A stretch of 53,301 nt of DNA from positions 1 through 53,301 of IMG/VR virus record IMGVR_UViG_3300032297_000671; one strand, 5' to 3'. Shown in pieces: positions 2,268-27,114 of the stretch. A program made the position numbers and the translations under genes. The number at the start of each line of letters is the position of its first letter. The stretch's first letter is position 1. The notes beneath the pieces are model-generated. The model did no database searches. It worked only from the letters and a program-made list of their open reading frames with translations, and was not told the origin of the DNA. Origin of the DNA: a virus.

Positions 2268-2812
2268 TGGCAACAAGACCTATAATTTGTCCACCAGTCC
2301 CTGCAAGCGGATTTATCTTCTTTAAGGATAAATTTGTCTTAGAGGAAGATTATAACATGACGACTTTTTTTGATTTTAAAAATATGATCGATGTCGTTTC
2401 TGCCTATTCTAGATTGAGAGTAACTCTAGATGCTGGAAAAAGTATAAAGATTAGTCAAACCGATCTTGCTGATGAATATGGATACGTCAAATGGATAGCA
2501 GTAAAGGTTAAATATCCTGCTCCCATAAATCCTATCCTATATGGATCTCAGGTTCCTATTATACCAGGAGTCCCTACACCAACTAACGGAACACCGCAAG
2601 TTCAAAAGTACATAACGTGGACATATCAAGGAAAGACATATAACATAGGACAATTAATGATACTTTCTGGTCCTAGGGTTGGGTCAACTGATGCTGATCA
2701 GACTGGATGGAATTTAAGTAAAGATACATTCCCGTACAATAATGGGGGTATAACTTTTACTAATCCACATACTGATTTTTCCGTAAAATTAGAGATATTG
2801 GTGGCTAGATAA
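2267..2812 (+). CDS. Beta-rich protein, paralogue of the preceding gene
   Basis: This 181-residue product shares the C-terminal module of the 1593 gene: GQLMILSG near residue 128 and the ending FSVKLEILVAR. The middle holds a Pro-rich linker (about residues 85-108). It lacks obvious membrane or catalytic features. It is the last gene of the 531-2812 operon. As with its neighbour, a surface-exposed virion protein is plausible but unproven. Confidence 0.7.
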   Translation: MATRPIICPPVPASGFIFFKDKFVLEEDYNMTTFFDFKNMIDVVSAYSRLRVTLDAGKSIKISQTDLADEYGYVKWIAVKVKYPAPINPILYGSQVPIIPGVPTPTNGTPQVQKYITWTYQGKTYNIGQLMILSGPRVGSTDADQTGWNLSKDTFPYNNGGITFTNPHTDFSVKLEILVAR

Positions 2813-2837
2813 GGTCTAATTTTTCTTATTATATGTT

Positions 2838-2848
2838 GAATATATAAG
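2838..2848 (+). promoter_or_regulatory. Secondary late-promoter-like motif (GAATATATAAG)
   Basis: This is a variant of the recurrent motif, 57 bases before the ATG at 2906 and upstream of a second, better placed copy at 2875. The same variant (AATATATAAGA) precedes the minus-strand gene ending at 36706. Confidence 0.4.
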
Positions 2849-2874
2849 AAAGAAGGTTTCAATCTCGCTAAAGA

Positions 2875-2885
2875 GATATATAGAA
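2875..2885 (+). promoter_or_regulatory. Putative late promoter (GATATATAGAA)
   Basis: This copy of the NGATATATARA motif ends 20 bases before the ATG at 2906, in a 93-base gap that otherwise holds nothing else recognisable. Confidence 0.6.
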
Positions 2886-2905
2886 AGCAAAAAAACTAAA
2901 GTAAA

Positions 2906-5518
2906 ATGGATTTACTAAATCAATTGAAAACTCTAAGAGATAATACTAATTCTCCTGAAGTGAGAACACTGTGTGAATCTCACATAAAAAACATCCAAGA
3001 AGGAACTGTTACTTTGAATGAATCTGAAATTATTGAATCGGTTAACGAGGCAAATAATTCTGCTTCGAATGAAGTAAATCCAATGGAAATGCTAAGAAAG
3101 CAAGAACTTGAAAAATCTAAATCAATGGCTTCTAGACTTATGGAGTCTTGGGGTGGTTTAGGATCTTCTTTTTCTAAAACTTCTGGTTCTTACGTTGACG
3201 GAAAAACTGAGGAGAAAAAAGACTTAGCTTCTAATATTTCTGAGAGCCTATCTCAATTTGCTGATAATGATCCTGCAGCTAAAGCATTTGTTCAGTCACA
3301 AGGAGTTAATAACTTAGGAGTTTATGAATCTATACTTTCTATAAAAGGACAAGGAATATATGAGCATCCTAATGTTAAGGTTCTTTGTGAGAAATACACA
3401 CACCTTATTAAGTCTCAAAATTTACCAGAGTTTCTTGTAGCTGAATCGTTTGCTTCAGAAATACAAAACTTTACATGGGACAATAAAGTAAAATCCATTT
3501 ACGAAAAAATTTCAGAGAGCTTAAATTCTCTTAAACCTGAGATTGAGGTTTCTAAAGCTTTATATTCGATCGAAAGAAATGCTGGATCTGATTTCTATTC
3601 TCCTGTTACAGAGTCATTGAACAAATGGCTAGTTTCTGAGAATAAATCGGTTGCTTTGTTATCAAAAGAATTGTCTAGATGGTCTTTCAATCCAGCTGTA
3701 AGAAATCTTGTTAATAGTCTTTCATTAATGGAAAGCTCTAATGAAAAATTAAGCATTCCTGTTAATAGTGGAAATTCTTCAGTAAGTAGATTATTCTCTC
3801 CAGTTTTAGTTGGTAGCGGTAAAACAACATTTACTATCGGAAGTAACGTTTTTGAAGGTAATGCAGAAGGTATCAGAAAGTTATCTAACAAGGAGATTTC
3901 AGAATTACCTAAAAACTTTATGAGCTTATTGGAGTCTTTCTATTCTCCGATGGTTAAGGTTAACGAGAGCGGTATCTCATACTTTATTGGCGATAAAGCT
4001 TACAAATTGGTAGGGGAAAACGATTCAGTTAACATTTACTCAAAGGGTAATAAAATTAAATTCGCTGATAATACACAATTGGCAAAACAGATCGCTCTTG
4101 AGATTTCTGGAACTTTTGGTATTAACGAATCAAAAGCAATTTCTGATTTGATCAACATCTACGAAAATTTTGATCAAATCGTAGAATTGGACTTTGCAAA
4201 AAGATTAGATTCTAAGGTTTATGAGGGAGCATCAGTTAATCTTATTAAATGGGAGAATAAGCTCTATTTGAACAAGATCAATTCTGCAATGAATGAGAAT
4301 TCTTTGTACGTTGTAAACGGAACTCAGGCTTCTTCTATGATTAAGGAGTTTTTAAAGTATGACATATCAGAAGGTCTTACCGAGTTTTTAGACGGAGAAA
4401 ATAGAATCAAATCTATCATGATTAACGATAGAGCTCAGATTATTGAAAACATCACTATCGTGGAAAAAGAGATTCAGAAAATCGAAGCTACGATGTCTCA
4501 AAATCCTGTATTTACTAACTCTAAAGAATTACAAAGAGCTAAATCTCTCTTAGAGCAGGAGCTTAATACATTGAGACAAAAATGGTCTGCTGTTAACGAA
4601 GAAATTGAGAAAATCGATTCAGGAGTTTCAGAAGTTCAAAATGTTAACGAGGATGAAAAATTTAATGTTGGAGACTACATTAAAGTTAAAGAGTCTGGAA
4701 ACACAGGAAAAATTATTTCTGTAGATTCTACTTCAGGATCATACACTGTATTGATGGATAATGGCAAAACAGGCGATTATAGAGTAGATGAAATCGTTGA
4801 TATCGAAGAAGCTTTAGCTGATGCAGGTAAAGAGAACGACGAAAAAAGCAAACCACAGGAAGATGAGGAGGAAATAAAGGAGAATGAAATGGCTTCTGCT
4901 CCAACAAAAGCCACTGCCGGTTCTAAAGATATGACTCCTGCTGCTACTATGAAAGCAAATACAACTGCTGCTCCATCTTCGAAAGAGCAAGAAGTTACTA
5001 GCAAAAAAGATGTAGAAAATCTAGATCACGCTAACCTTGAAGAAGCACCTGAGGGTAAAGAAAAAGAAACTAAGTTCGAGGTTAAATTGAAAGATTCGTT
5101 AGTTGATAAGATTGGATACAATGTTAATGAATCAGATCTTGAAAAAACAAATCCTGAACTTGCTGAAGCACCAGGAGGAAAAAGCGATGCTGATTATAAA
5201 GTAGAGATTTCTATCCCTAAAGCTAATAACCCAGAAGCTAGTGATAAAGATCAAGATTTAGCTGATGCACCTGAATCTGGTGTATCTAAGGTAAAGGCTA
5301 ATACAGATCAGAATTTAGCTACCGCTCCAGGTGGAGAATCTGAAGCTGATTATAAAGTTGAAGTTACTATTCCTAAGGCAAATAAGCCAGAAGCTAATGA
5401 TGAAGATCAAAACTTAGCTGATGCACCTGCAGCTGGAACTGAAGCTCAGACTAACGTTGAGGTTAATTCTGAAATGGGATATAACATTGACGAGAGCGAA
5501 GAGTCAAAAAAAAACTAA
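2906..5518 (+). CDS. Large acidic virion-type protein with leader and C-terminal repeats
   Basis: The 870-residue product begins with a leader holding several [L/I]xE sites that fit a T4-type prohead protease: IQE|G (30-32), LNE|S (37-39) and IIE|S (42-44). The middle is helical, with a coiled coil near residues 515-565 and a KOW/SH3-like stretch near 592-622 (KVKESGNTGKIISVDSTSG). From about residue 695 it is acidic with imperfect repeats of the type DLADAP / APGGxSxADYKVExxIPKAN. It ends in the in-frame heptamer A AAA AAC followed directly by TAA, with an open -1 frame beyond. A head-internal or head-associated role is inferred from the leader; no family recognised. Confidence 0.75.
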   Translation: MDLLNQLKTLRDNTNSPEVRTLCESHIKNIQEGTVTLNESEIIESVNEANNSASNEVNPMEMLRKQELEKSKSMASRLMESWGGLGSSFSKTSGSYVDGKTEEKKDLASNISESLSQFADNDPAAKAFVQSQGVNNLGVYESILSIKGQGIYEHPNVKVLCEKYTHLIKSQNLPEFLVAESFASEIQNFTWDNKVKSIYEKISESLNSLKPEIEVSKALYSIERNAGSDFYSPVTESLNKWLVSENKSVALLSKELSRWSFNPAVRNLVNSLSLMESSNEKLSIPVNSGNSSVSRLFSPVLVGSGKTTFTIGSNVFEGNAEGIRKLSNKEISELPKNFMSLLESFYSPMVKVNESGISYFIGDKAYKLVGENDSVNIYSKGNKIKFADNTQLAKQIALEISGTFGINESKAISDLINIYENFDQIVELDFAKRLDSKVYEGASVNLIKWENKLYLNKINSAMNENSLYVVNGTQASSMIKEFLKYDISEGLTEFLDGENRIKSIMINDRAQIIENITIVEKEIQKIEATMSQNPVFTNSKELQRAKSLLEQELNTLRQKWSAVNEEIEKIDSGVSEVQNVNEDEKFNVGDYIKVKESGNTGKIISVDSTSGSYTVLMDNGKTGDYRVDEIVDIEEALADAGKENDEKSKPQEDEEEIKENEMASAPTKATAGSKDMTPAATMKANTTAAPSSKEQEVTSKKDVENLDHANLEEAPEGKEKETKFEVKLKDSLVDKIGYNVNESDLEKTNPELAEAPGGKSDADYKVEISIPKANNPEASDKDQDLADAPESGVSKVKANTDQNLATAPGGESEADYKVEVTIPKANKPEANDEDQNLADAPAAGTEAQTNVEVNSEMGYNIDESEESKKN
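5509..5515 (+). promoter_or_regulatory. Probable -1 ribosomal frameshift site (A AAA AAC)
   Basis: The heptamer is in the correct phase for a tandem slip (zero-frame codons AAA AAC) and the zero-frame stop TAA is the very next codon. Slippage by -1 reads CTA AAA AAA ATA into a 58-codon open frame. A AAA AAC and A AAA AAG are classical slippery sequences. No stable structure is obvious at the usual 5-9 base spacing. Confidence 0.6.
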
Positions 5519-5752: not shown

Positions 5753-6112
5753 ATGGCAAAAGAATATGTTAGAAATGCGGATTTAATGGCCGCTATCCTT
5801 GAATGTAAGGAAAAGGGCGAATTAACTCCGCGTACTATAAAGATGTTCACGCTTATGATAAACGGAATCTCTAAAAAAATGGCTTATAGAGATCCTGAAG
5901 ATAAGGAAGATTGCATGGCTTTTGCTATGGAGGACTTAGTAAAATATTGGAATAGATTTGATCCAACAAAATCTAATAACCCATTCTCGTACTATACACA
6001 AATTGCAAAGAATGGATTTGCGAAAGGATGGAAAAAAATACATCCACCAAAAGCACCAAAAACAATACCTTTTTCTTACATCACTGGTGAGGATAATTCG
6101 TACAACGTTTAA
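5753..6112 (+). CDS. gp55: Late transcription sigma factor, T4 gp55-like
   Basis: The 119-residue protein aligns by eye along most of T4 gp55: VRNADLMAAILECK matches the gp55 start (NNKELLQAI), and residues 75-95 (NPFSYYTQIAKNGFAKGWKK) match gp55 [20 protein letters not shown]. In T4, gp55 replaces sigma70 on core RNA polymerase and reads the simple late promoter TATAAATA with help from gp33 and the clamp gp45. This version is shorter (T4 has 185 residues), mostly at the termini. It precedes head genes gp4 and gp20 and is the natural candidate to read the repeated GATATATARA motif of this genome. Confidence 0.85.
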   Translation: MAKEYVRNADLMAAILECKEKGELTPRTIKMFTLMINGISKKMAYRDPEDKEDCMAFAMEDLVKYWNRFDPTKSNNPFSYYTQIAKNGFAKGWKKIHPPKAPKTIPFSYITGEDNSYNV

Positions 6113-6114
6113 GT

Positions 6115-6600
6115 ATGACAGATATCAAGAAAATAAAACCCAATGGGGATTATAAATCTGGACTCTATGTACCAAAAAACCCTGAAAAGTATATTGGTGA
6201 CGTCCATAATATAATTTGTAGATCCTCGTGGGAATTTAGATTCTGTAGATATTGTGATTCGAACGAGAGAATACTCAAATGGAGTTCAGAACCTTTAAAA
6301 ATTCCTTATTATAATCCGCTCGATAAGAAGGAGCATGTTTATAACGTTGATTTTTATATACAGGTTTTACAGGATGATGATAATAAGCAAGACTGGATAA
6401 TAGAGATAAAACCAGAATCACAATTTAAAAGACCCATCCTGGAAGGTAATGCTACTTTACAAAAGCTAAAATCATACAACCATAAAATGCAAGTCTGGAT
6501 TACTAACCAGGCAAAATTCAAATATGCTAAAGAATGGGCATCTGCGAGAGGATACAAATTTGGTGTGGTTGATGAAAATTTTCTATTTAAAAGCAAGTGA
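6115..6600 (+). CDS. gp4: Head completion protein, T4 gp4-like
   Basis: The 161-residue protein follows T4 gp4 (gp50/65) closely: YVPKNPEKYIGD at residues 19-30 (T4 WVPKNISKYRGD), CRSSWEFRFCRYCD (T4 YRSNWEKFFFEWLD), ILKWSSEPLKIPYY, then DFYIQV and IIEIKPESQ. The conserved E..D..IEIKP pattern is that of a restriction-endonuclease-like fold. In T4 it is needed to finish filled heads before tail joining. It starts 3 bases after the gp55 gene, and its stop overlaps the GTG of the next gene. Confidence 0.88.
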   Translation: MTDIKKIKPNGDYKSGLYVPKNPEKYIGDVHNIICRSSWEFRFCRYCDSNERILKWSSEPLKIPYYNPLDKKEHVYNVDFYIQVLQDDDNKQDWIIEIKPESQFKRPILEGNATLQKLKSYNHKMQVWITNQAKFKYAKEWASARGYKFGVVDENFLFKSK

Positions 6601-7233: not shown

Positions 7234-8862
7234 ATGGCAGGATTCACAGATAACCCACAAGGAAATCCCATATTTCAAAGAATTAAGGATTCAGTAAAAT
7301 CCCTGAGTAATTTTGGATTAAGGTACGGTGATATGGTCATTAGGAACTCCCAGGCTATCGGTCAGACCGAAGCTGAGTTCATGAAGAAAGGTCCTATCGA
7401 AGATGATACAATGTTGTATTCACTAGGTAGACAAGATACAACAACAAAGCAATTTATTGGTTATTTTGATAAGGATTACGCAGGTAAGAGAGATTACCTT
7501 AGAAAGTTTTCACTAAATCCTGAAATCGAATATATTCTGGATACTGTTTGTGACGAGTCCATAACTTACGATTCCTATAATTTTTTTGCATACCCAGCTT
7601 TTCTTAATCTAACCAATATAAAAGAAAAGGTTATAAATAGAATTGACTCAAACTACAAGAAATTGTATGATATGTTTGGGTTTAGCGACGATAGCACTGC
7701 TTGGCAATATTTCAGGCAGCTTCTTGTTGACGGATTTATCGCATTTGAGATTATTTACGATGACAAGGGTAAAAATATCATAGGATTTAAAGAACTTGAT
7801 GCAACGACATTAATGCCATCTGTAGAAAAACAGAAGGATGGATCTTTTCTTAATGTTTGGTATCAATATCCTAAGGACATTAATAAGAAGAGAATGCTCT
7901 ATGATTCTCAGATAGTCTATATCTCATATGCTAAGGGAAATACAGTTTCCAGGGTTTCTTATGCTGAAAGATTGATTAGACCTTATAACATATTAAGAAT
8001 CATAGAGTATACCCGTGTTATATGGTCGGTAATGAACGCTTCATTCAGGATGAAGATGACAGTTCCTATCGGATCAAGATCACCTCAGAAGTCAATGCAA
8101 ACCTTAGGTGAATTGATGAGTATCTATAAAGAGGATATAAGATTTAATGACGATAGTGGAGAACTTACTGTAGACGGTAGACCGAAAATACAGTTCTACA
8201 AAAATTATCTTATGCCTTCAGGTGTAAATGGTACACCAACTATCGAGCCTTTAAACACTGCGGGTCCTAATCTTAATGATCCCGCTCCATTAGCATATTT
8301 CTTTGACAAATTAGCACAGGAATCAAAAATTCCTTTTTCTAGATTCCAAGGACCGGATGGAGGATCTATAGGTCAATATTCAAATTCTGCAGAAGGACTT
8401 GACAAGGAAGAAATCAGATTTGCAAAATTTGTAACGAGATTGAGATCTATATTTCAGGATATCCTTGTTAAGCCACTATGGATCCAGATGTGTAAGGATT
8501 TTCCGGAGCTTGAAAAGGATTATCTTTTTAAAAGTCAACTTGGATTAACTTTTGTTTCTGATAACCCATTTAGGGTAAATCAAGAAATAGAGACCATGAC
8601 AAAAAAGAAAGAGTCTATTGATAGTCTTTATGGGTTAACTGATGAAGATGGTAAGCCATTCTTTTCTTTAGCTTATCTTATAGAGAGCTATTTGGGTATG
8701 ACTGCTGATGATATTAAGGCTAATGAGGAGGCAAAGAAAAAAAGAAAAGAAGAATTAAAGAAGGAAGGTAAAAGTGAAGAAGCTGCTGCACCTGCTGAGG
8801 GATCTGCAGAACCTGCGGAACCTGCAGAAACACCCGAAACAGAAACACCTCCAGCTGAATAA
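7234..8862 (+). CDS. gp20: Portal protein, T4 gp20-like, copy A
   Basis: The 542-residue protein has the gp20 pattern: DKDYAGKRDYLRKFS with EIEYILDTVCDESI near residues 75-105 (nucleating domain), WQYFRQLLVDGFIAFEI, the core ELTVDGRPKIQFYKNYL near 310-328, and the stretch SRFQGPDGG...EIRFAKFVTRLR leading to the crown helix. Length equals T4 gp20 (524) plus an acidic Ala/Pro/Glu-rich tail of about 50 residues. Gp20 forms the dodecameric DNA gate at one capsid vertex and starts head assembly. It is followed 11 bases later by a full second portal gene. Confidence 0.92.
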   Translation: MAGFTDNPQGNPIFQRIKDSVKSLSNFGLRYGDMVIRNSQAIGQTEAEFMKKGPIEDDTMLYSLGRQDTTTKQFIGYFDKDYAGKRDYLRKFSLNPEIEYILDTVCDESITYDSYNFFAYPAFLNLTNIKEKVINRIDSNYKKLYDMFGFSDDSTAWQYFRQLLVDGFIAFEIIYDDKGKNIIGFKELDATTLMPSVEKQKDGSFLNVWYQYPKDINKKRMLYDSQIVYISYAKGNTVSRVSYAERLIRPYNILRIIEYTRVIWSVMNASFRMKMTVPIGSRSPQKSMQTLGELMSIYKEDIRFNDDSGELTVDGRPKIQFYKNYLMPSGVNGTPTIEPLNTAGPNLNDPAPLAYFFDKLAQESKIPFSRFQGPDGGSIGQYSNSAEGLDKEEIRFAKFVTRLRSIFQDILVKPLWIQMCKDFPELEKDYLFKSQLGLTFVSDNPFRVNQEIETMTKKKESIDSLYGLTDEDGKPFFSLAYLIESYLGMTADDIKANEEAKKKRKEELKKEGKSEEAAAPAEGSAEPAEPAETPETETPPAE

Positions 8863-8873
8863 AATAAAACGAT

Positions 8874-10478
8874 ATGGCCGGATTTCTAGATAACGTAGCG
8901 GAAAGAACATTCTTAGGTAACCTGTACAAAAACCTATCCAGAATAGGTAAGTTTGGTATGGAGTACCAAGATATGGTTATTAAAAATTCACAGGCAATTG
9001 GTTCGACAGAATCTAATTTTTTTAATGAGCAAGGGAGCGGATTTACTGAGAATGATGCTTTTAGATGGACTCTTGGATATCAAGATACCCAAATTAGAAA
9101 ATACATTGCTTATTTTGATAAGGATTATGTAGGTAAGAGGGATTTTCTTCGAAAATTTTCCTTGAATGGTGAGATTGATTTTATTCTTGATACAATTACC
9201 GATGATTCTGTAAATTACGATGATAAGAATTTCTTTTCTTATCCATCACTAGCAAACATAGATCTTAAGAATAATGTTGTAGATAAGTTGGACGAAACGT
9301 ACAGGAATCTCTATATGCTTTTCGGTTTCCAGCAGAGTATTCTTGCCTGGCAATATTTTAGACAATTCCTGATAGACGGTTTTCTTGCATTTGAGATTGT
9401 ATATTCTACCGATGGTAAAAAAATTGTAGGTTTTAAAGAGCTCGATGCTACTTCACTTCAGCCAGCAACAGAAAAACAACCTAACGGTGAATTCCAGCAA
9501 ATTTGGATTCAATACCCGAATGATAATAAGATGACCAGAAGGTTAAAAGCTGAACAGATTATTTATATTTCTTATGCTAAGGGTAACACAGTCTCTAGAG
9601 TTAGCTATGTAGAAAGATTAATAAGATCATACAATATCCTACGTATAATGGAAAATACTAGGGTTATTTGGAATGTTATGAATGCCTCTTATCGTTTGAA
9701 ATTTGTCATCCCTGTTGGTAGTCAATCACAGCAGAAAGCAATGCAAACCCTTGGGCAGTTAATGTCTATCTACAAGGAGGAAATAGATCTGAATGATTTT
9801 TCCGGAGAATTAACAGTAAACGGTAGACCAAAGGTTCAATTTTATAAGAATTATTTGTTTCCTGAGAAAGATGGACAATCTCCAGATATTTCGACCCTGG
9901 ATCCTAATGGTCCGGATTTTAATGTGATGGAGAACGTTGTTTATTTCTATAATAAACTTAAACTAGATTCAAAAATACCTTATGCTAGATTTGCTTTTAG
10001 AGGGGGTACACCAGCAAATTATCAGATAGCCATAGATCAGCTTGAAAGGGATGAAATAAGATATGAGAAATTCTTAACTAGACTTAGATCAATCTTCCAA
10101 GAAATACTCGTTAAACCTCTTTATATTCAGATGTGTTTGGATTTTCCTGAATTATCAAAGGATAGATCATTTAAGGCTAATTTAGGTCTGGATTTTGTAA
10201 GAGAGAATTTGTTTGAAGAATTAATACAGCTTCAGAATTATACCAAGAGAAGCGATTTTATTACTGCTCTTGGAGGAATGAACCAGAAAATAGGAGAAGC
10301 TGAAACCCCTTACTTTGATAAAGAATTTCTAATAAAAAGATTCCTTGGTATTACTATGGATGAGTTTAGGAAGAATGAAAAGTATAAGGAAAACGAAGCT
10401 AAGGAAGCTAAAAAGGCTGAAAAAGAAGGTGGTGCTACTGAAGAAGGTGGCGGTGGTGGAGAAAGCTTTACTCTTTAA
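8874..10478 (+). CDS. gp20: Portal protein, T4 gp20-like, copy B
   Basis: The 534-residue protein matches copy A throughout and in the same order: DKDYVGKRDFLRKFS, AWQYFRQFLIDGFLAFEIVY, YISYAKGNTVSRVSYVERLI, ELTVNGRPKVQFYKNYL and EILVKPLYIQMCLDFPELS. Roughly half of the positions look identical by eye. Differences cluster at the N-terminus, in the loop after GRPKxQFYKNYL and in the tail, which here is Lys/Glu then Gly-rich. Both copies retain every core block, so neither looks decayed. They could form mixed rings or two types of portal, or one may have a separate role. Confidence 0.9.
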   Translation: MAGFLDNVAERTFLGNLYKNLSRIGKFGMEYQDMVIKNSQAIGSTESNFFNEQGSGFTENDAFRWTLGYQDTQIRKYIAYFDKDYVGKRDFLRKFSLNGEIDFILDTITDDSVNYDDKNFFSYPSLANIDLKNNVVDKLDETYRNLYMLFGFQQSILAWQYFRQFLIDGFLAFEIVYSTDGKKIVGFKELDATSLQPATEKQPNGEFQQIWIQYPNDNKMTRRLKAEQIIYISYAKGNTVSRVSYVERLIRSYNILRIMENTRVIWNVMNASYRLKFVIPVGSQSQQKAMQTLGQLMSIYKEEIDLNDFSGELTVNGRPKVQFYKNYLFPEKDGQSPDISTLDPNGPDFNVMENVVYFYNKLKLDSKIPYARFAFRGGTPANYQIAIDQLERDEIRYEKFLTRLRSIFQEILVKPLYIQMCLDFPELSKDRSFKANLGLDFVRENLFEELIQLQNYTKRSDFITALGGMNQKIGEAETPYFDKEFLIKRFLGITMDEFRKNEKYKENEAKEAKKAEKEGGATEEGGGGGESFTL

Positions 10479-10490
10479 AACTAATATTCT

Positions 10491-11453
10491 TTGGATCTAG
10501 CCAATCTTATTTCAAAGAAAAGAATTCTCGTAGTAGGAGATTCTATACTCGACGAATACATTTACGGGAAAGTATACAGGATATCACCAGAAGCTCCAGT
10601 TCCTGTTGTGCTGAAATCTAATAGATCTTATTGTTTAGGTGGTGCCTCAAATGTAGCACAGAATATTATCTCTATGGGAGCTAGTTGTGATCTAATATCG
10701 ATTATAGGAAAAGATCATGCTGGTGATAAATTGTCATCCCTTTGTAAAGATATCGGAATAAATCTAATAGGATTAGATGACGGAAGATCAACTACTGTTA
10801 AATCTAGGGTTATTGGAAATGGCCATCAGATAGTAAGAATCGATGAGGAATCAACTTTTCCTATATCAGAGCATATTGAAAATTGTTTAATTGAGCTTGT
10901 GAATTCTGCTTCACATCTTGTAGATGGAGTTATCATACAGGATTACGGAAAGGGGTTGGTAACAAAAAGAGTTGTTGATCATATCAACTCGTTATTTTCT
11001 AAAAAATTAGTACCAGTTCTAGTCGATCCTAAGGATAATGATATTTCAAAATATTCGGGATCACACATAATAAAGCCAAATCTTTCTGAATTCAAGAATT
11101 TTTTAGGCGTAGATCAAAATATCAAGTTATCTGGGAATGATATAAAAAATAGAGCCATGGATCTAATGCTCAATAACAGCGTAGGATCGCTTTTAATAAC
11201 ACTTTCAGAAAAAGGTATGGTTTATGTTAAAGATGATCTTTTTGTTACCGACAGGGGTGTAAAAATCGATATAACTGATGTTTCTGGTGCGGGTGATACT
11301 GTTAGTGCAGTCTTTATGCTATTTTACCTTGCAGGAATGCCTATCAGTGATTGCTTAAGAGCCTCAAATCTAGCTGGATCACAAGTTTGTAAGATTTCCG
11401 GGGCAGTTCCAGTTAATCTAAATTTGCTTATAGCAGACTTTAATGCCGGATAA
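10491..11453 (+). CDS. rfaE1: Heptose-7-phosphate kinase (RfaE1/HldE kinase domain), PfkB family
   Basis: The 320-residue protein starts at a TTG. GDSILDEYIYGKVYRISPEA at residues 16-35, followed by PVPVV, is the signature of the RfaE/HldE kinase domain, followed by LGGASNVAQN (49-58) and the catalytic anion-hole motif VSGAGDT (about 264-270). This family phosphorylates D-glycero-D-manno-heptose 7-phosphate at C1 on the route to ADP-heptose for LPS core. There is no attached nucleotidyltransferase domain, so this is the kinase half only. It follows the second portal gene by 12 bases. Carriage with glycosyltransferase-like genes later in the window suggests sugar or surface chemistry; substrate unproven. 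Confidence 0.85.
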   Translation: MDLANLISKKRILVVGDSILDEYIYGKVYRISPEAPVPVVLKSNRSYCLGGASNVAQNIISMGASCDLISIIGKDHAGDKLSSLCKDIGINLIGLDDGRSTTVKSRVIGNGHQIVRIDEESTFPISEHIENCLIELVNSASHLVDGVIIQDYGKGLVTKRVVDHINSLFSKKLVPVLVDPKDNDISKYSGSHIIKPNLSEFKNFLGVDQNIKLSGNDIKNRAMDLMLNNSVGSLLITLSEKGMVYVKDDLFVTDRGVKIDITDVSGAGDTVSAVFMLFYLAGMPISDCLRASNLAGSQVCKISGAVPVNLNLLIADFNAG

Positions 11454-14713: not shown

Positions 14714-15839
14714 CGTTTTAATAGACGGAAACTATATTTTCCACAAAACTTTTGGTGTTTTTGGTGGATATGGATCTAAAGATCCTGGAGAGATCCTAAA
14801 AACTGCGGGAGAGCAGTCAATGTTTATAAGAAAAATAACTACAGATCTTTGCTCTGCTTTAAGGTCTCTTCCTATTGGAGGAAGATTAATTTTTACTGTT
14901 GATAGCAGAAGTTGGAGGAAGGATGTTGAAATTGAAGGTGGAGGATATAAATCAAATAGGGTTAAAGACGAGAATGTTGATTGGAGCGTATTTTTCGATT
15001 TATTGCAAGCTTACGGTGAGCATTTAGAAAACATGGGATTTGTGTTTTCTAAAGTTGATGGTGCAGAGGGTGATGATCTTCTTTATTTTTGGTCAGATTA
15101 TTTCAATACGAAGGGAGAGGATTGTATAATAATATCTGGTGATAAAGACATGTACCAGCTTGCTAGATGGAAGGGACCAAATTGGACTGTTGTTTGGAAT
15201 AGTAATTCTAAGAATAATATTCTTTCTGTTCCTCAATCTTGGGAATCTGATTGGTTGAACAAATCGGGGGAGGCAACTATTTTTAACATATCAGAATCGA
15301 TGGATCCTGACAAGGATAGATTTAAAGATTTCGTTAAAAAGATAGACGTCCAGGAAATAAATCCAAGGGATTTTGTTTTTGTTAAGATGTTGATAGGTGA
15401 TAAAGGAGATGCCGTTCCCGGTATTTGGGAAATGAAGGTCGGGGAAAAAACAAATAATTTAACTCCAAAAAAAGCTGAAAATATCCTTGCATCTCTACAA
15501 GAATCTAAATGGAAAGATTCAGAATTCAAAGATTTGATATCTGATTCTGAATTTTTAGATTGGATATCAGGAATGACCCTTAGAATAATGAAGGATGTTG
15601 ATAGCCAAGAAAACAGAGAGAAGGTTTCTTCCAATCTGCTGAGAAATTATAAGTTAATGTGGCTTGATAAGTATGTCATACCAAGGGAAGTTATAGAAAA
15701 GACTATATTGGAATTAAAAAGAGGAATATCTTTGCCTAGAAAATCTATAACACTTGATAGAGTAAAAATCCTTGACGGAACTAACTGGATTGTAACTCAG
15801 TCAGCACCTAAAAGCTTTGACCCATTTAACAACTTCTGA
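14706..15839 (+). CDS. rnh: 5'-3' exonuclease, T4 RNase H/FEN-1 family
   Basis: The 377-residue protein has the metal-binding acid clusters of the family: LIDGNYIFHKTF at residues 5-16 (Asp7), YKSNR near 80-84, DGAEGDDLLYF near 118-128 and SGDKDMYQL near 144-152, with a helix-hairpin-helix-like GDKGDAVPGIWEMKVG near residue 235. T4 RNase H (305 residues) removes RNA primers and flaps behind the fork together with ligase and clamp, both encoded or implied nearby. The extra length lies mainly between residues 155 and 225 and at the C-terminus. Confidence 0.87.
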   Translation: MINVLIDGNYIFHKTFGVFGGYGSKDPGEILKTAGEQSMFIRKITTDLCSALRSLPIGGRLIFTVDSRSWRKDVEIEGGGYKSNRVKDENVDWSVFFDLLQAYGEHLENMGFVFSKVDGAEGDDLLYFWSDYFNTKGEDCIIISGDKDMYQLARWKGPNWTVVWNSNSKNNILSVPQSWESDWLNKSGEATIFNISESMDPDKDRFKDFVKKIDVQEINPRDFVFVKMLIGDKGDAVPGIWEMKVGEKTNNLTPKKAENILASLQESKWKDSEFKDLISDSEFLDWISGMTLRIMKDVDSQENREKVSSNLLRNYKLMWLDKYVIPREVIEKTILELKRGISLPRKSITLDRVKILDGTNWIVTQSAPKSFDPFNNF

Positions 15840-20679: not shown

Positions 20680-23316
20680 ATGATTCTAGTTTTTAGAAAA
20701 GGCGCTGTCTATAAGGCTACACCAGCCTCAGCAAAAAGAGATACAGTAAAGCCGGAGAATATTTTTCCATTAATGTCATTGCCTCTAAATGCTAAGGGTG
20801 TTGCAACAGATCTTAATGATTTTCAATGGTGGGCATATTCTGATAGATGGGATAAATGGTTAAAAGCTAATCCTAGAGAATGGACAGCTGAATCAATAGA
20901 TCCTGCTAAGTATGATTACAATACATTAAAGGAGGAGCTTGATAATAGAGTTAGACCTCTTACAAATTACATTTCTGATCAGGCATCTAGTCTAATCACT
21001 GGTGAAAAAGCAGTTAGCTTTACCGAGTATATGAAGATCCTCGAATCTAATGAAGAGGAAGCGTCTGGATCTAAAGATGCATTGAAAAAGTATATTAAAC
21101 TTGGATATGCAGTAGATTCCTTGAGAAAATCAGGAAAGCTAAAAACCACAATGGCGGTTTCTTCTCTCGAAGCAGGAAAACCTTATGCAGTGGTGGTTGA
21201 TTTCATGGACGAAACCCAAAAACCGATAGCTGAATCTAGGCAGGCTTTGAGAATGACTAAGATAAAGGAAACTCCGAAACTTGTTCTTGCAAAAGTTGAT
21301 TATAGTATCCCTACCGGAAAAATAGAGGATGAAGTTGATAGCTTTTTGGATAAGGTTATAGACGTTACAAAAAGCGTAGCAATTGCAGGAGTATCTTTAG
21401 CTGCTATCTACGGTGTTGTTCAAGTAGCCGGATCGATATGGGGTGGATGGCAACTATTCAAAACCGGAAATAAAATTTACAATTGGGCTACTAAAAAACC
21501 TGCTATAGAAGCTGCAGCAAAAAGCGGTGGTGGAGCATGGAATGCTATTAAGAATTTTGCAACAACTGCATGGAGTGGAAAAAATGCAGCATCTGTTGTT
21601 AATGCAGCAAGAACTACACTTCCTTCTGGAGCATTTGTTGAAGGCGGACTTGCCTATTCTGCTGAAGGTGTTCTCCTTAGAGGTGCAGCAGCAAACTCTG
21701 TTAAAGCAGCAGCAGGAAGACTAATTGCACAGAACGGTGGTGCAGCAGTTGCAGCAGCAGGAGCCGAAGCAGCAGGAGTATCTGGTATAGTTGCAGCAGA
21801 AGCATCTAACCCGATAGGATGGATAATAGCAGCGGCTTCGATCATAGGATCCGGTGTTAATCAGATATGGAACTGGATGAGTGATAAGCAAGCCCCAAGA
21901 TATTCTGATATCGATAGCTTTGCTTATGGAAGCTTCTCCCCTGGTGATATTCCTGTAGGAAAACCAATTACTGTTTGTTGGACTAGCGACGGTGGAGGTG
22001 GTGGATGGGGATTCGTTGCGGATCTTCTAACATTTTCTAAAGACGATACAAGAACTACAATGGAACTTGTTAAAATTGGAAGCTTTAAAGATAGATCTAT
22101 CTTCCTATTAACTCAGGTTAATTCTAAGGGTCTTCAGAAAATGATGAAGGATAACGATTTAATACTTCTTTCATTTGATAACGGTGATAAGTTCGAAAGA
22201 GGTACATTCGATAATGATGATCTTGAATTTGAAACTATCGCAATACAGGATATAACTAAGCTAACTATTGGAACTTCTTTTGTTGGATACAGCGGATGGG
22301 AAGATATGCAAAGTGCATATAACGAAGCACCCGATTCTGCATTTTATGTACCTGGTGGAGCTAGACAAGAATACCCATTCCACTATGAAAATGCGGAGGG
22401 TAAAAAAGTCAATGTAACAGGAACCCTTGTATCTAAGGATGAGCTTGAAAATATGGACATCGCTAGATTGGTTCCGATCCCGGGTGAGGGTGTTCTAGCC
22501 GAATCTAAATCTATTGTTTATGTAAATTCTTTAAATGAGAATAAATCAGTTCTTTCTTTTGACGAATTCTTTAGCGACAGAAAAGCAATTATGGAAGATG
22601 ATAAATCTGAGGATAATGAGACAGAGGATCAAGCTGAAATGAGTAATTGGTCTAGAGAATTCACCGAAAGAAAATCTTCATCCAACTATAGATCTTCATC
22701 TAGCTACGGACAAATTCCTATGGCTGTATACAAAGTTGATAATCTACAATATGTTGATCCGAATGAGAGTGGAAAAGCAGGAGACTTTTCTTACTATATA
22801 GTAGATCCGGATAGCTTGGATGCTCAACCTGGACAAGCTATTGGTGTTGAATCTGCATCTACTGAAGATGCTATCAACGATCCTAGATTTGGACTTGATA
22901 CTTACGTTAAACCTGAGGTTGAGCAACAGGAAGAGACACCTGAGGAGGAAGAAGTTATCATAGAGCCTGTAGAGGAAGAGCCGGGAGAAGTTATATCAAC
23001 ATCTAAGGGAGATGTTAATATCAGGAAAGGTAAAAATTCAGTAACTATAAAAGACAAGGAAGTTAGTGGAGGTGTTAATATACTTGATGAATTCGGTACA
23101 GATGAACTTAAGAAAGACCTTGCTATCAATAATTGGGATGGAGTTACTTCAGTTAAGCTAAGATACGATCGACTTGGCGAACCCCTTAATGTTATTATTA
23201 AAAATAGAGGAGCTTCTGCTGGAGATAAAAGAAGAGTTATCCGAAGAGGAGAGCTTGGATTTGATGATGCTGTAAAATTTGCAAAGGACGTTGAATCTGG
23301 AATAAAAACGATTTGA
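20680..23316 (+). CDS. Large virion-type protein with Ala/Gly-rich membrane-like core
   Basis: The 878-residue protein is unrecognised. Residues 230-255 and 375-395 are hydrophobic enough to cross a membrane (SVAIAGVSLAAIYGVVQVAG; NPIGWIIAAASIIGSGV), and the region between is a low-complexity Ala/Gly helix-forming tract, as seen in pore-forming and DNA-ejection proteins. Candidate [L/I]xE sites occur internally (ILE|S near 120, SLNE|N near 615). A Ser-rich and then very acidic linker near 660-780 precedes a folded C-terminal domain. It lies between the head-targeted nucleotidyltransferase and the prohead protease, so a head-internal, ejected protein is likely but inferred. Confidence 0.7.
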   Translation: MILVFRKGAVYKATPASAKRDTVKPENIFPLMSLPLNAKGVATDLNDFQWWAYSDRWDKWLKANPREWTAESIDPAKYDYNTLKEELDNRVRPLTNYISDQASSLITGEKAVSFTEYMKILESNEEEASGSKDALKKYIKLGYAVDSLRKSGKLKTTMAVSSLEAGKPYAVVVDFMDETQKPIAESRQALRMTKIKETPKLVLAKVDYSIPTGKIEDEVDSFLDKVIDVTKSVAIAGVSLAAIYGVVQVAGSIWGGWQLFKTGNKIYNWATKKPAIEAAAKSGGGAWNAIKNFATTAWSGKNAASVVNAARTTLPSGAFVEGGLAYSAEGVLLRGAAANSVKAAAGRLIAQNGGAAVAAAGAEAAGVSGIVAAEASNPIGWIIAAASIIGSGVNQIWNWMSDKQAPRYSDIDSFAYGSFSPGDIPVGKPITVCWTSDGGGGGWGFVADLLTFSKDDTRTTMELVKIGSFKDRSIFLLTQVNSKGLQKMMKDNDLILLSFDNGDKFERGTFDNDDLEFETIAIQDITKLTIGTSFVGYSGWEDMQSAYNEAPDSAFYVPGGARQEYPFHYENAEGKKVNVTGTLVSKDELENMDIARLVPIPGEGVLAESKSIVYVNSLNENKSVLSFDEFFSDRKAIMEDDKSEDNETEDQAEMSNWSREFTERKSSSNYRSSSSYGQIPMAVYKVDNLQYVDPNESGKAGDFSYYIVDPDSLDAQPGQAIGVESASTEDAINDPRFGLDTYVKPEVEQQEETPEEEEVIIEPVEEEPGEVISTSKGDVNIRKGKNSVTIKDKEVSGGVNILDEFGTDELKKDLAINNWDGVTSVKLRYDRLGEPLNVIIKNRGASAGDKRRVIRRGELGFDDAVKFAKDVESGIKTI

Positions 23317-23349
23317 TAAAAAAACGTCAAATTTTCCGTAAAAGTAAAA

Positions 23350-23360
23350 AGATATATAAA
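23350..23360 (+). promoter_or_regulatory. Putative late promoter (AGATATATAAA)
   Basis: This copy of the recurrent motif ends 23 bases before the ATG of the protease-scaffold gene. It probably also serves the capsid gene, which has no motif of its own. Confidence 0.6.
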
Positions 23361-23383
23361 CTTAAATAAACGATAGTCAACCA

Positions 23384-25396
23384 ATGGGAAATAATCCAAA
23401 TTCATTGAACGAGAATCTATTCTTTATATTAGAAAAGCAAAATGACAATCTTGCCGTTTCTAAAGTAGATTCCGATTCAGGTAAAGAATACATTCTTCAG
23501 GGAATAGCTGCTCAGTTTGGCAAGGAAAACAATAACAATAGAATCTATGAGGAAGGTGAATATCTTCCGCATCTTGACTATTTAAAGGACAAGATCAAAC
23601 AAAAAAGACTCCTAGGAGAATTGGATCACCCAGAAAAGTTTGATGTTTCTTTAAAAAATATTTCTCACGTTATCGACGATTTAGAATACGATAAAGACGG
23701 GAGAGTTCTTAAGATCAAGGTAAAATTGTTAGATACACCTGCTGGTCAGATAGCTAAAAAATTAGTTGATGCTGGAATTCCTTTAAGTATTAGTTCTAGA
23801 GCCGCTGGTCAAGTTGGACCAGATAAAAAGGTTCAAATCAAGAAGATTTTTACGTATGATTTAGTTGCTGATCCTGGTTTTCAAGATGCTCAGCTAGAGA
23901 GAGTTTATGAGTCTGCAGACTTTGTTACGTTCGTTGATCACCAAAAAAATTCAATAATAAACAGTCTTGAATGCGTAAATGAATCATTTGGATTAGAAAA
24001 TGAAAATTCATTGAAGATATATAAAGTTGAAAATAACGAGGAATTCGAAAAACTCTTTAAGTCAGAAGAAAAAAATAAATCCGCTACTATGGAGCAAAAA
24101 GAATATGTGACTGCTGATGAACTCAATAAATATTCTATCTTTTTAAAGAAGAAAATGGATGAGCTTGAGGCACAAATAAATGAAATGAAAAACGATGCTT
24201 CAGTATCTGAAGCTTCAACTGTTACAACTACTGACACTTCTGCTTTAGAAGAAAGGGTAGCTAAGCTTGAGAAATATTCAGAGTATCTTGCTGAAAATCT
24301 AGACGGTGCAATTAAATATGGTGAATATCTTGCTGAGAATCTAGACAACAGCATCACTTACTCTAAGTATCTTGCTGAAAATCTTGATAAGAACATCTCT
24401 TATGCTAAGTATCTAGCTGAGAATGTTGATAAGTCTATTTCATATTCAGAGTATGTTGCTGAGAATGTTGATAAGGCTATCGACTATTCTAAATATTTAG
24501 CTGAGAAAGTTGATGATGGTATTCAATACACAGAATATGTTGCTGAGAACCTTGATAAAAATATCGCTTATTCTGAGTATCTTGCAGAAAACCTAGATAA
24601 AGGTATCGCTTATTCTGAGTATCTTGCAGAAAACCTAGATAAAGGTATTGCTTATTCAGAATACATCGCAGAAAAATTAGATCAAGGAATTCACTTCACT
24701 GAATACCTTGCTGAAAACGTAAACAAGTCGGTATCTTATTCTGAATACATCGCAGAAAACTTAAATAAGGGTATCGCTTATTCAGACTATCTAGCTGAAA
24801 AGCTAAATGGTAACATCGCAGAAACTGAGTCTATCTCAGAGAGCGTAAAAAATGGTAAATCTGTTAACTTGAACGAAAGTGCAAGAGAAAATGCAGAAAT
24901 TATCGCTAACACAGAATTGGTAGAGTCTGGTTTTGCTGGAGATTATAATTCAATCTCAGGCAAAATTGACGCTCTAATTGAATCAGTCAAGACGCAAAAG
25001 ACTGAGGAGAATATAAACGAGGCAAGAACGAAAGTTCAGCCAACTGCTCAAACACAAAAAGCAGATGAGGCATTGAATGAAGGAATTGAATCTAATGTTA
25101 AGTCATCAGGTTACAAGTTTATCGATCAGATGCCAGAGGAATATGCTCAGGTTTGGGAATCCTTAAATGAAAACCATAAGCAATCTATTGTTGCTCAGGC
25201 TTCTTTCTACAATTTGGAAACTCAATATCAGATCAATAACTTCTGGTCTACTAGACAACTTGATACAAAAACAATTGGACTTCAAAAACTTCAAGAAAGC
25301 CAAGAAACACCAGAACCAACAAAAGAAAGCTTATCACCTGCATATTCTAACGACTATGTACAGTGGGTAGCTAAGTCTCTTGAAGGTAAGTTTTAA
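23384..25396 (+). CDS. gp21: Prohead protease (gp21-like) fused to a repetitive scaffold
   Basis: Residues 36-180 form a T4 gp21-type serine protease: QFGKENNNNRIYEE, LLGELDHPE with His82, ISHVI, LDTPAG, and GIPLSISSRAAG with the nucleophile at Ser137 or Ser138. The next 470 residues are scaffold-like: charged helix, then thirteen 14-residue repeats of EYLAENLDKGIAYS type (24281-24826), then a polar tail with several LNE sites. In T4, protease (gp21) and core scaffold (gp22) are separate genes. A LNE|N at residues 8-10 may be the self-processing site. It lies 23 bases before the capsid gene. Confidence 0.88.
   Translation: MGNNPNSLNENLFFILEKQNDNLAVSKVDSDSGKEYILQGIAAQFGKENNNNRIYEEGEYLPHLDYLKDKIKQKRLLGELDHPEKFDVSLKNISHVIDDLEYDKDGRVLKIKVKLLDTPAGQIAKKLVDAGIPLSISSRAAGQVGPDKKVQIKKIFTYDLVADPGFQDAQLERVYESADFVTFVDHQKNSIINSLECVNESFGLENENSLKIYKVENNEEFEKLFKSEEKNKSATMEQKEYVTADELNKYSIFLKKKMDELEAQINEMKNDASVSEASTVTTTDTSALEERVAKLEKYSEYLAENLDGAIKYGEYLAENLDNSITYSKYLAENLDKNISYAKYLAENVDKSISYSEYVAENVDKAIDYSKYLAEKVDDGIQYTEYVAENLDKNIAYSEYLAENLDKGIAYSEYLAENLDKGIAYSEYIAEKLDQGIHFTEYLAENVNKSVSYSEYIAENLNKGIAYSDYLAEKLNGNIAETESISESVKNGKSVNLNESARENAEIIANTELVESGFAGDYNSISGKIDALIESVKTQKTEENINEARTKVQPTAQTQKADEALNEGIESNVKSSGYKFIDQMPEEYAQVWESLNENHKQSIVAQASFYNLETQYQINNFWSTRQLDTKTIGLQKLQESQETPEPTKESLSPAYSNDYVQWVAKSLEGKF
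24281..24826 (+). repeat. Thirteen 42-bp in-frame repeats (14 residues each)
   Basis: The consensus is [E/K]Y[L/V/I]AE[N/K][L/V][D/N]KxIxYS, with two adjacent copies identical (EYLAENLDKGIAYS). Each unit carries LAE or a close variant (VAE, IAE) before Asn or Lys. The period of 14 suits a long amphipathic helix or coiled coil. Confidence 0.95.
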
Positions 25397-25419: not shown

Positions 25420-27114
25420 ATGAAACTAATTAACGAAGCAGAAATCTTCGAAACCTGGTCTCCTATCATCGAGCAGAAGGCTGGAATCGCAGATACTGAA
25501 AAGAAACAGTGGCTTTCTAAATATTGTCACTACCACTCATTGAACGAATCAGCTGGTGCTTATTCTTCTTTGAACGTTGTTAACGGTATGGGTGCAGTTA
25601 CACCTCCTACCTTCCCAACTAACACCAACGCTAACGCTGGTTTTTATAACTCATCTTGGCAAGGATCTGGCGATAAATTCCCTTCACTTCTTCCATTGGC
25701 TATTCAGGTAGCTGCGAAGACTGTAGGTTTTGACATCGTTCCAGTTATCCCTATGTCAGGTCCTACTGGCGTATTGTCATACCTTGACTACGTTTACGCT
25801 GGTGGTAAAATCAGCCCAACTTCTGTTGGTGACACAGCTGCTGATGCTTTAGCTGCTGCTCCTGCAATGATCAAATTGCAAATCACTTCACTTGCTTCAG
25901 GATATCCTGCATCATTTGCGGTTGGTACTACTTACTACATCACTAACGCTTCTTCAGCTGGTGCATACATCACTACTAAATTCGTAGGTCTATCAAGAAT
26001 TGATGGTTACCCTATCTTTAGAGTAGAAGGTGTTACTGCTGGTGAGTCTATCGCAGCTGTTATCGACGGTGGTGCTACTAAAGTTGGTACTTCAATCAAC
26101 GGATCTCAAGCTGGTACTACTACTGCTTCTGCAGCATTAGTTAAAGCTTTAGAAGACCACATCCAAGGTTTCTCTGGTGCTGGTTTCCAAAACAGCGATA
26201 ACTGGCAAGGTCCATTCGTTGACGGTACTAAAACTTACAACCCAATGCTTAGAGCATACGGTGAGAGTAACTACTACCAGTCAATGGGTCTTTCGACTTT
26301 CACTAAGTTCGTTGAGGCTGACACTTTCCAAGTAGCTGCTTCTGTAACTACGGAGCAAATCCAAGACCTTAACAAACAATTCGGTATCGACGTTATCTCA
26401 ATGATCGAGAACGCATTGGTTAATGAGGTTTCACAAGCTATCAACAAGCACATCCTTTCTAGAGGATTCGCTCTTGGATGGTCTAACCACTACGACTTCT
26501 ACACTACAGAAGGACAAAACTTGAACCTTAACCTTGTAATTGGTGGTACTGCAGGTTCATACACTATCCCTTCATACGTAGGTAAAGATGACACTGGTTT
26601 AACTCTTGCTGGAACTGCTGGTCCTGCAACAGGAACTTACGAGAACTTGTCAACTCTTCAGAGAAGATTATTCTCAAGAATTCTTGCTGCTGCTAACGTA
26701 GTTGCTAACAGAGGTAGAAGAGGTCCTGCTAACTTCATCGTTACTAACGCTAACGTTGCAAGTGCATTGCAAGATATCTCTCAGTTCACTTTCGCTCCTT
26801 TCTCTAACACGTTGACTCAGAACAACGGTACATTATACCCTGTAGGTTCACTTGCTGGTATGACTGTTTACGTTGATCAGAACATGACGTTCTCTGATAC
26901 GAGAGTATTGGTAGGTAGAAAAGGTGGTGATGACGAACCAGGACTTAAGTTCATGCCTTACATGATGGCTGAGTCTATTCAGACAATCTCTGAAGGTACT
27001 ATGTCACCTAAGATCGCAGTTAAATCTCGTTACGCTTTAGTAGAAGCTGGTTTCCACCCAGAAACTATGTATTTCTGCTTCAACGTTAACTTGCCTGCTG
27101 GAGGTATCTCCTAA
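25420..27114 (+). CDS. gp23: Major capsid protein, T4 gp23-like
   Basis: The 564-residue protein has the gp23 plan: leader MKLINEAEIFETWSPIIE (T4 MTIKTKAELLNKWKPLLE) ending at LNE|S (residues 41-43), then the mature part. Later blocks include EQIQDLNKQFGIDVISMIEN (residues 315-334), RRGPANFIVTNANVASALQD (430-449), and near the end KSRYALVEAGFHPETMYF. It should form the hexamers of the head after removal of the leader by the adjacent protease. Codon choice differs from neighbours (AAC, TAC, TTC, ATC preferred), as for a very highly expressed gene. A strong terminator follows. Confidence 0.95.
   Translation: MKLINEAEIFETWSPIIEQKAGIADTEKKQWLSKYCHYHSLNESAGAYSSLNVVNGMGAVTPPTFPTNTNANAGFYNSSWQGSGDKFPSLLPLAIQVAAKTVGFDIVPVIPMSGPTGVLSYLDYVYAGGKISPTSVGDTAADALAAAPAMIKLQITSLASGYPASFAVGTTYYITNASSAGAYITTKFVGLSRIDGYPIFRVEGVTAGESIAAVIDGGATKVGTSINGSQAGTTTASAALVKALEDHIQGFSGAGFQNSDNWQGPFVDGTKTYNPMLRAYGESNYYQSMGLSTFTKFVEADTFQVAASVTTEQIQDLNKQFGIDVISMIENALVNEVSQAINKHILSRGFALGWSNHYDFYTTEGQNLNLNLVIGGTAGSYTIPSYVGKDDTGLTLAGTAGPATGTYENLSTLQRRLFSRILAAANVVANRGRRGPANFIVTNANVASALQDISQFTFAPFSNTLTQNNGTLYPVGSLAGMTVYVDQNMTFSDTRVLVGRKGGDDEPGLKFMPYMMAESIQTISEGTMSPKIAVKSRYALVEAGFHPETMYFCFNVNLPAGGIS

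Follow-up and report, generated by a model that had tools for sequence, protein, structure and literature searches.

Models of genome packaging in tailed phages and herpesviruses assume a portal ring whose subunits are all alike, set against a capsid and a motor that are both five-fold. A virus fragment from IMG/VR (IMGVR_UViG_3300032297_000671), whose full 53,301 bases are referred to here as the window, raises the question of why a phage would keep two portal genes. Portal gene A (positions 7234 to 8862, 542 aa) and portal gene B (8874 to 10478, 534 aa) lie in tandem on the plus strand, separated by an 11-nt spacer (8863 to 8873) running from the TAA stop of A to the start of B. The initial annotation, made from the letters alone, had described them as two complete gp20-type portal genes, and profile searches bore this out. 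Against a cut-off of 22.9 bits for Pfam family PF07230 (Portal_T4), A scored 205 bits and B 200 bits, each a full-length family match covering essentially the entire model; both also matched PHROG 213 (E 1.4e-56 and 1.2e-56). Aligned over 505 aa, the two proteins share 53% identity and 71% similarity. AlphaFold2 models built from a 63-row alignment were of moderate quality (mean pLDDT 65 and 67), and at that level of confidence both have the portal fold, with T4 gp20 as the top Foldseek match in the PDB for each (E 2e-16 and 7e-20).

Across all related pairs the spacer between A and B measures between -1 and 23 nt. The 11 nt found in the window are too short for a promoter or terminator, which suggests that A and B are co-transcribed from a single message and are possibly coupled at the level of translation. 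Genome searches returned open frames of 1093-1096 aa extending over both portals in three records (G015, G018 and G020; loci L249, L278 and L226). An A-B fusion, or readthrough of the stop, was rejected because in the sequences A and B are separated by a TAA, and in many relatives the gap does not preserve the reading frame.

Both copies share family, full length and domain order with T4 gp20 (PDB 3JA7, 6UZC and 9MKB), and their surroundings are also those of T4: a late region, including sheath- and baseplate-related genes, with a head-morphogenesis cluster. On the plus strand, this cluster comprises a gp55-like late sigma factor (5753 to 6112; PHROG 234), a gp4-like protein of the head-closure/TnsA-like nuclease family (6115 to 6600; PHROG 218, E 2.9e-44; PF08722), a gp21-like prohead maturation protease (23384 to 25396; PHROG 207 and synteny) and a gp23-like major capsid protein (25420 to 27114; PHROG 138/28442). 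The A/B pair sits where relatives have their single portal gene, in that the sigma factor and gp4-like genes stand at the same place upstream in one-portal and two-portal phages alike. Downstream the two groups differ: most one-portal relatives compared have the protease and capsid genes directly after the portal, and the two-portal clade has a replication block (ligase, clamp loader and others) in between. A PfkB-family carbohydrate kinase gene directly follows the portal pair in the window (10491 to 11453), as it does in G002, and no homologue was detected at that site in the two subclade-2 loci compared. Elsewhere in the window, two adjoining genes whose products have no assigned function (1593 to 2264 and 2267 to 2809) encode distant paralogues (26% identity, E 6e-7); this pair, also found in G002, is possibly a third, older tandem duplication.

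How general the arrangement is was assessed from IMG/VR loci retrieved by similarity to A and B. A complete A followed by a complete B was present in 208 loci, which reduce to 124 different DNA sequences and, at 95% amino acid identity, to 70 clusters. Loss of one copy was not found in the 70 clusters, a set from which very divergent members that had lost a copy could escape because of how the loci were retrieved. All members with only one complete copy were truncated by a contig end, except for two with a broken frame in one copy, either of which may reflect sequencing error: L050 (7629-9247), with a frame break in B, and L228 (1527-3161), with a stop inside A. Beyond these two single-locus breaks, nothing speaks for an assembly artefact or a decaying recent duplicate. 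The 124 distinct versions, drawn from many metagenomes, rule out an artefact, and together with the 53% identity of the copies and a dN/dS near 0.02 in both they refute this explanation, to which we give practically no weight.

Longer contigs of the lineage tell the same story: all 18 records of 69-373 kb carried exactly two portals, although some of them (G002, G003 and G007) are near-identical and do not count as independent. The premise of the initial annotation that portals are normally single-copy holds for the relatives, which have one full-length copy each, and the two-portal lineage departs from it; a single copy is customary for the T4-type family but not definitional. In a public phage collection, 2,030 records had a T4-type portal match to B, at 2,032 places. 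Among the matches listed, a second place occurred only in the LR756501/LR756503 pair (735 kb), and there it was a fragment of 58 profile positions. In LR756501, which otherwise has one full portal, this is a 101-aa open reading frame (15166-15351) that aligns with the 58 positions at the C-terminal end of the family profile; it is either the relic of a portal gene or a domain put to another use. The sequenced bacterial and archaeal genomes searched gave zero matches, and the named phage records searched contained no isolated member of the two-portal lineage, which is known from metagenomic contigs. The one-portal relatives fall into two groups, LR756500/L189/L191/L295/L305 and L306-L313, of which the second is sister to the two-portal clade. 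The two-portal state is best described as a trait that has become fixed in a large lineage of giant phages of Bacteroidota type, with contigs of up to 373 kb.

The initial annotation had proposed that a gp20 phylogeny of related phages would date the duplication, and such a phylogeny places it before the lineage divided. In a tree of 76 portals, A and B were each monophyletic (SH-aLRT 99 and 98), and every one-portal lineage fell outside the two clades. The A and B subtrees mirror one another, with the same two subclades in each, and their stem branches are alike (0.21 and 0.24). Separate duplications in each subclade were considered by constraining subclade 1 A and B together; this topology was rejected (AU p 0.002), which implies one duplication before the two subclades split. 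(A first tree, in which Lak, PAU and PTm1 were included, suffered from very long branches and was superseded by the 76-portal and AU-test trees.) On the evidence of these phylogenies, A and B are the products of one old tandem duplication of a T4-type portal gene in the ancestor of the lineage. Similarity between A and B was 0.490 within the same genome versus 0.486 between different genomes; since partners in one genome are no more alike than strangers, there was no detectable signal of gene conversion.

A and B are both subject to very strong purifying selection. Median dN/dS among close relatives was 0.020 for A and 0.023 for B, and matched pairs never exceeded 0.064; relaxed selection on one copy, which the initial annotation had named as part of what would speak against its reading, was thus absent. 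Its broader contention, that two intact versions have been retained and that this is abnormal for portals, is strongly supported by the age of the duplication, the absence of loss in the 70 clusters and the low dN/dS of both copies. Always present and both under selection, the two genes behave in this respect as the subunits of a hetero-oligomeric ring should. They have also evolved at the same pace, with a ratio of total tree lengths (A/B) of 1.02. After the rates of four neighbouring genes were removed, the partial correlation of branch rates between A and B was 0.71, whereas no other pair with or among those four genes exceeded 0.33. Shared constraint on similar paralogues could contribute to this covariation, but the contrast with the neighbouring genes is large. 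Equal and covarying rates would fit partners in one complex.

Divergence between the two copies is distributed unevenly along the protein. Domain limits were assigned by alignment to T4 gp20 with the published limits (PMC4493910) and are approximate. Within the window, A and B are most alike in the first stem helix (identity 0.83), wing part 2 (0.73) and the clip (0.60), followed by wing part 1 (0.58) and the N-terminus (0.42); identity is lowest in the second stem helix (0.33), crown (0.31), tunnel loop (0.30) and C-terminal tail (0.13). The original placement of the divergence at the termini and one loop stands in broad terms but was incomplete. The most paralogue-specific stretch comprises the channel loop, second stem helix and tunnel loop, at 8254 to 8406 in A (approximately residues 341-391) and 9900 to 10049 in B (approximately residues 343-392), both on the plus strand. 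Paralogue-conserved change in this stretch was greater than at about 99% of circularly shifted positions (fraction 0.011). In T4 gp20, the DNA contacts are made by three loops, the inner clip loop, the channel loop and the tunnel loop (PMC4493910), so two of the three lie within the specialised stretch.

These channel residues bear on whether the second gene simply raises portal output, with interchangeable copies mixing at random in the ring. A tandem, co-transcribed layout would suit such a dosage effect. However, the channel residues are paralogue-specific and conserved, A and B have been distinct since before the subclades split without gene conversion, and just 12 portal copies are needed per virion; we consider this explanation very unlikely.

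The extreme C-terminus supplies a further difference. In one-portal relatives it usually ends in one or two hydrophobic residues. A hydrophobic tip, defined after inspection as F/V/I-T/K/N-L/I/F/M, is carried in the window by B (SFTL, 10464 to 10475, plus strand), as in most of subclade 1, and by A in subclade 2. With this motif, the tip is confined to B in 29 of the 70 clusters and to A in 26; ten clusters have it on both copies and five on neither copy. An independent-pairs test of the partition gave no significance, with few independent changes available; for that reason, and because the motif is post hoc, we claim none. A tip carried by one copy or the other is what one would predict for a shared complex to which either subunit can contribute it.

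The strong dissimilarity of crown and C-terminal tail also suits a different interpretation, in which one copy is the real portal and the other, while keeping the portal fold, has taken on another role, for example as an assembly initiator, a scaffold-side plug, or a neck or internal head protein. Taking on a new role tends to make rates unequal, yet the tree lengths are equal and the stem branches alike; moreover, the clip, stem and wing are conserved in both copies and the carrier of the tip switches between subclades. We therefore regard such a division into portal and non-portal as improbable.

The remaining components of the head and tail were then compared. In two-portal genomes the large terminase and the full-length capsid protein are each encoded once, implying one motor and one shell for two portals. 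Open reading frames of 149-162 aa, such as G002 134423-134869 and similar ones in other genomes of the lineage, lie far from the capsid gene and resemble a stretch of about 60 residues in the N-terminal part of the major capsid protein. The tail-tube gene, in contrast to the terminase and capsid genes, occurs as a tandem pair in all 17 two-portal records that are uncut at that place, and is single in the 11 one-portal records with a detectable tube; six fragmentary one-portal records, including the contigs of the nearest one-portal clade, gave no tube match. In G002 the pair lies at 22523-23074 and 23094-23666 (in L203, at 2523-3077 and 3094-3669), outside the window, and the G002 copies are 56-59% identical. 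The tube tree is consistent with a duplication before the split of the two subclades, the second copies grouping together (91/83).

This inventory weighs on the reading in which A and B each build a homododecameric portal of their own, the two serving alternative heads, different phases of infection or two vertices of the same head. Each copy retains every gp20 domain and could fold alone, and the tail-tube pair could mean two tail variants. With one motor and one shell, however, it is hard to see what two independent portals would be for, and a self-comparison of one genome showed no second sheath gene. In no pair are A and B more than 23 nt apart, which leaves no room to regulate them separately; their rates are equal and strongly covary, and in most genomes one copy is without the ancestral C-terminal tip, which would be odd for self-sufficient rings. 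Two independently used homo-portals are possible but unlikely, and fit the data less well than a mixed ring.

We consider it probable that the portal ring holds both A and B, most likely as twelve alternating subunits, (AB)6. Of the three options that the initial annotation had offered, the mixed ring is thus the one we favour, on account of the tight coupling, the symmetric and covarying evolution, the single terminase and capsid and the duplication of the tail tube alongside that of the portal; the alternative-portal and second-vertex options are less favoured. From one transcript, both proteins would be produced as what are now obligate partners and would co-assemble into one ring of two subunit types, for which (AB)6 is the simplest arrangement. 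The wing, first stem helix and clip would serve as interchangeable ring-building parts facing the capsid, the single terminase and the neck, and the channel loop, second stem helix, tunnel loop and crown would be the specialised segments lining the channel, so that the loops lining the path of the DNA would be of two kinds. The T4 neck consists of a gp13 dodecamer and a gp14 hexamer (PMC9958956); on such a plan, one A and one B would stand against each six-fold neck subunit, and six loops of each type would point toward the DNA. As the tail tube was duplicated by the same stage, the entire DNA conduit may be hetero-oligomeric from head to tail, an (AB)6 portal continued by a tube of two alternating subunits, with both duplications on about the same stem branch; we put this extension forward tentatively, as a serious possibility short of a probable one.

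T4 has one portal gene and a homododecamer, whereas here two diverged tandem genes are always present. The nearest named relatives of the A/B portals are LR756500 (462 kb) and LR745206/LR756501/502/504 (634-735 kb), along with the Lak phages, Sphingomonas phage PAU and Tenacibaculum phage PTm1. These huge phages have homologous capsid, tube and terminase proteins but one full-length portal and one tail tube per record tested. The Moraphages, aquatic jumbo phages of up to 307 kb with predicted Bacteroidota hosts (PMC12619734), are similar to the two-portal phages in size, habitat and predicted host and may be the same lineage, although no accessions are shared; that report counts portal and tail tube among the shared families and does not mention a duplication. 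The open-access literature searched contained no earlier report of a second, duplicated or heteromeric phage portal. The 'portal protein homologs' of PMC4870245 were considered as a precedent and set aside, as these are host-encoded portals.

A two-subunit portal, if true, would mean that neighbouring subunits are no longer identical and that the ring is C6, and would allow one to ask which features are needed once per pair and which in all twelve subunits. Homomeric rings have become fixed heteromeric rings through duplication, with functions partitioned among the subunits, in the V-ATPase membrane ring, the proteasome and the CCT chaperonin. Those are cellular machines; the A/B portal would be a viral case of the same transition, with the one-portal sister lineages as its natural control.
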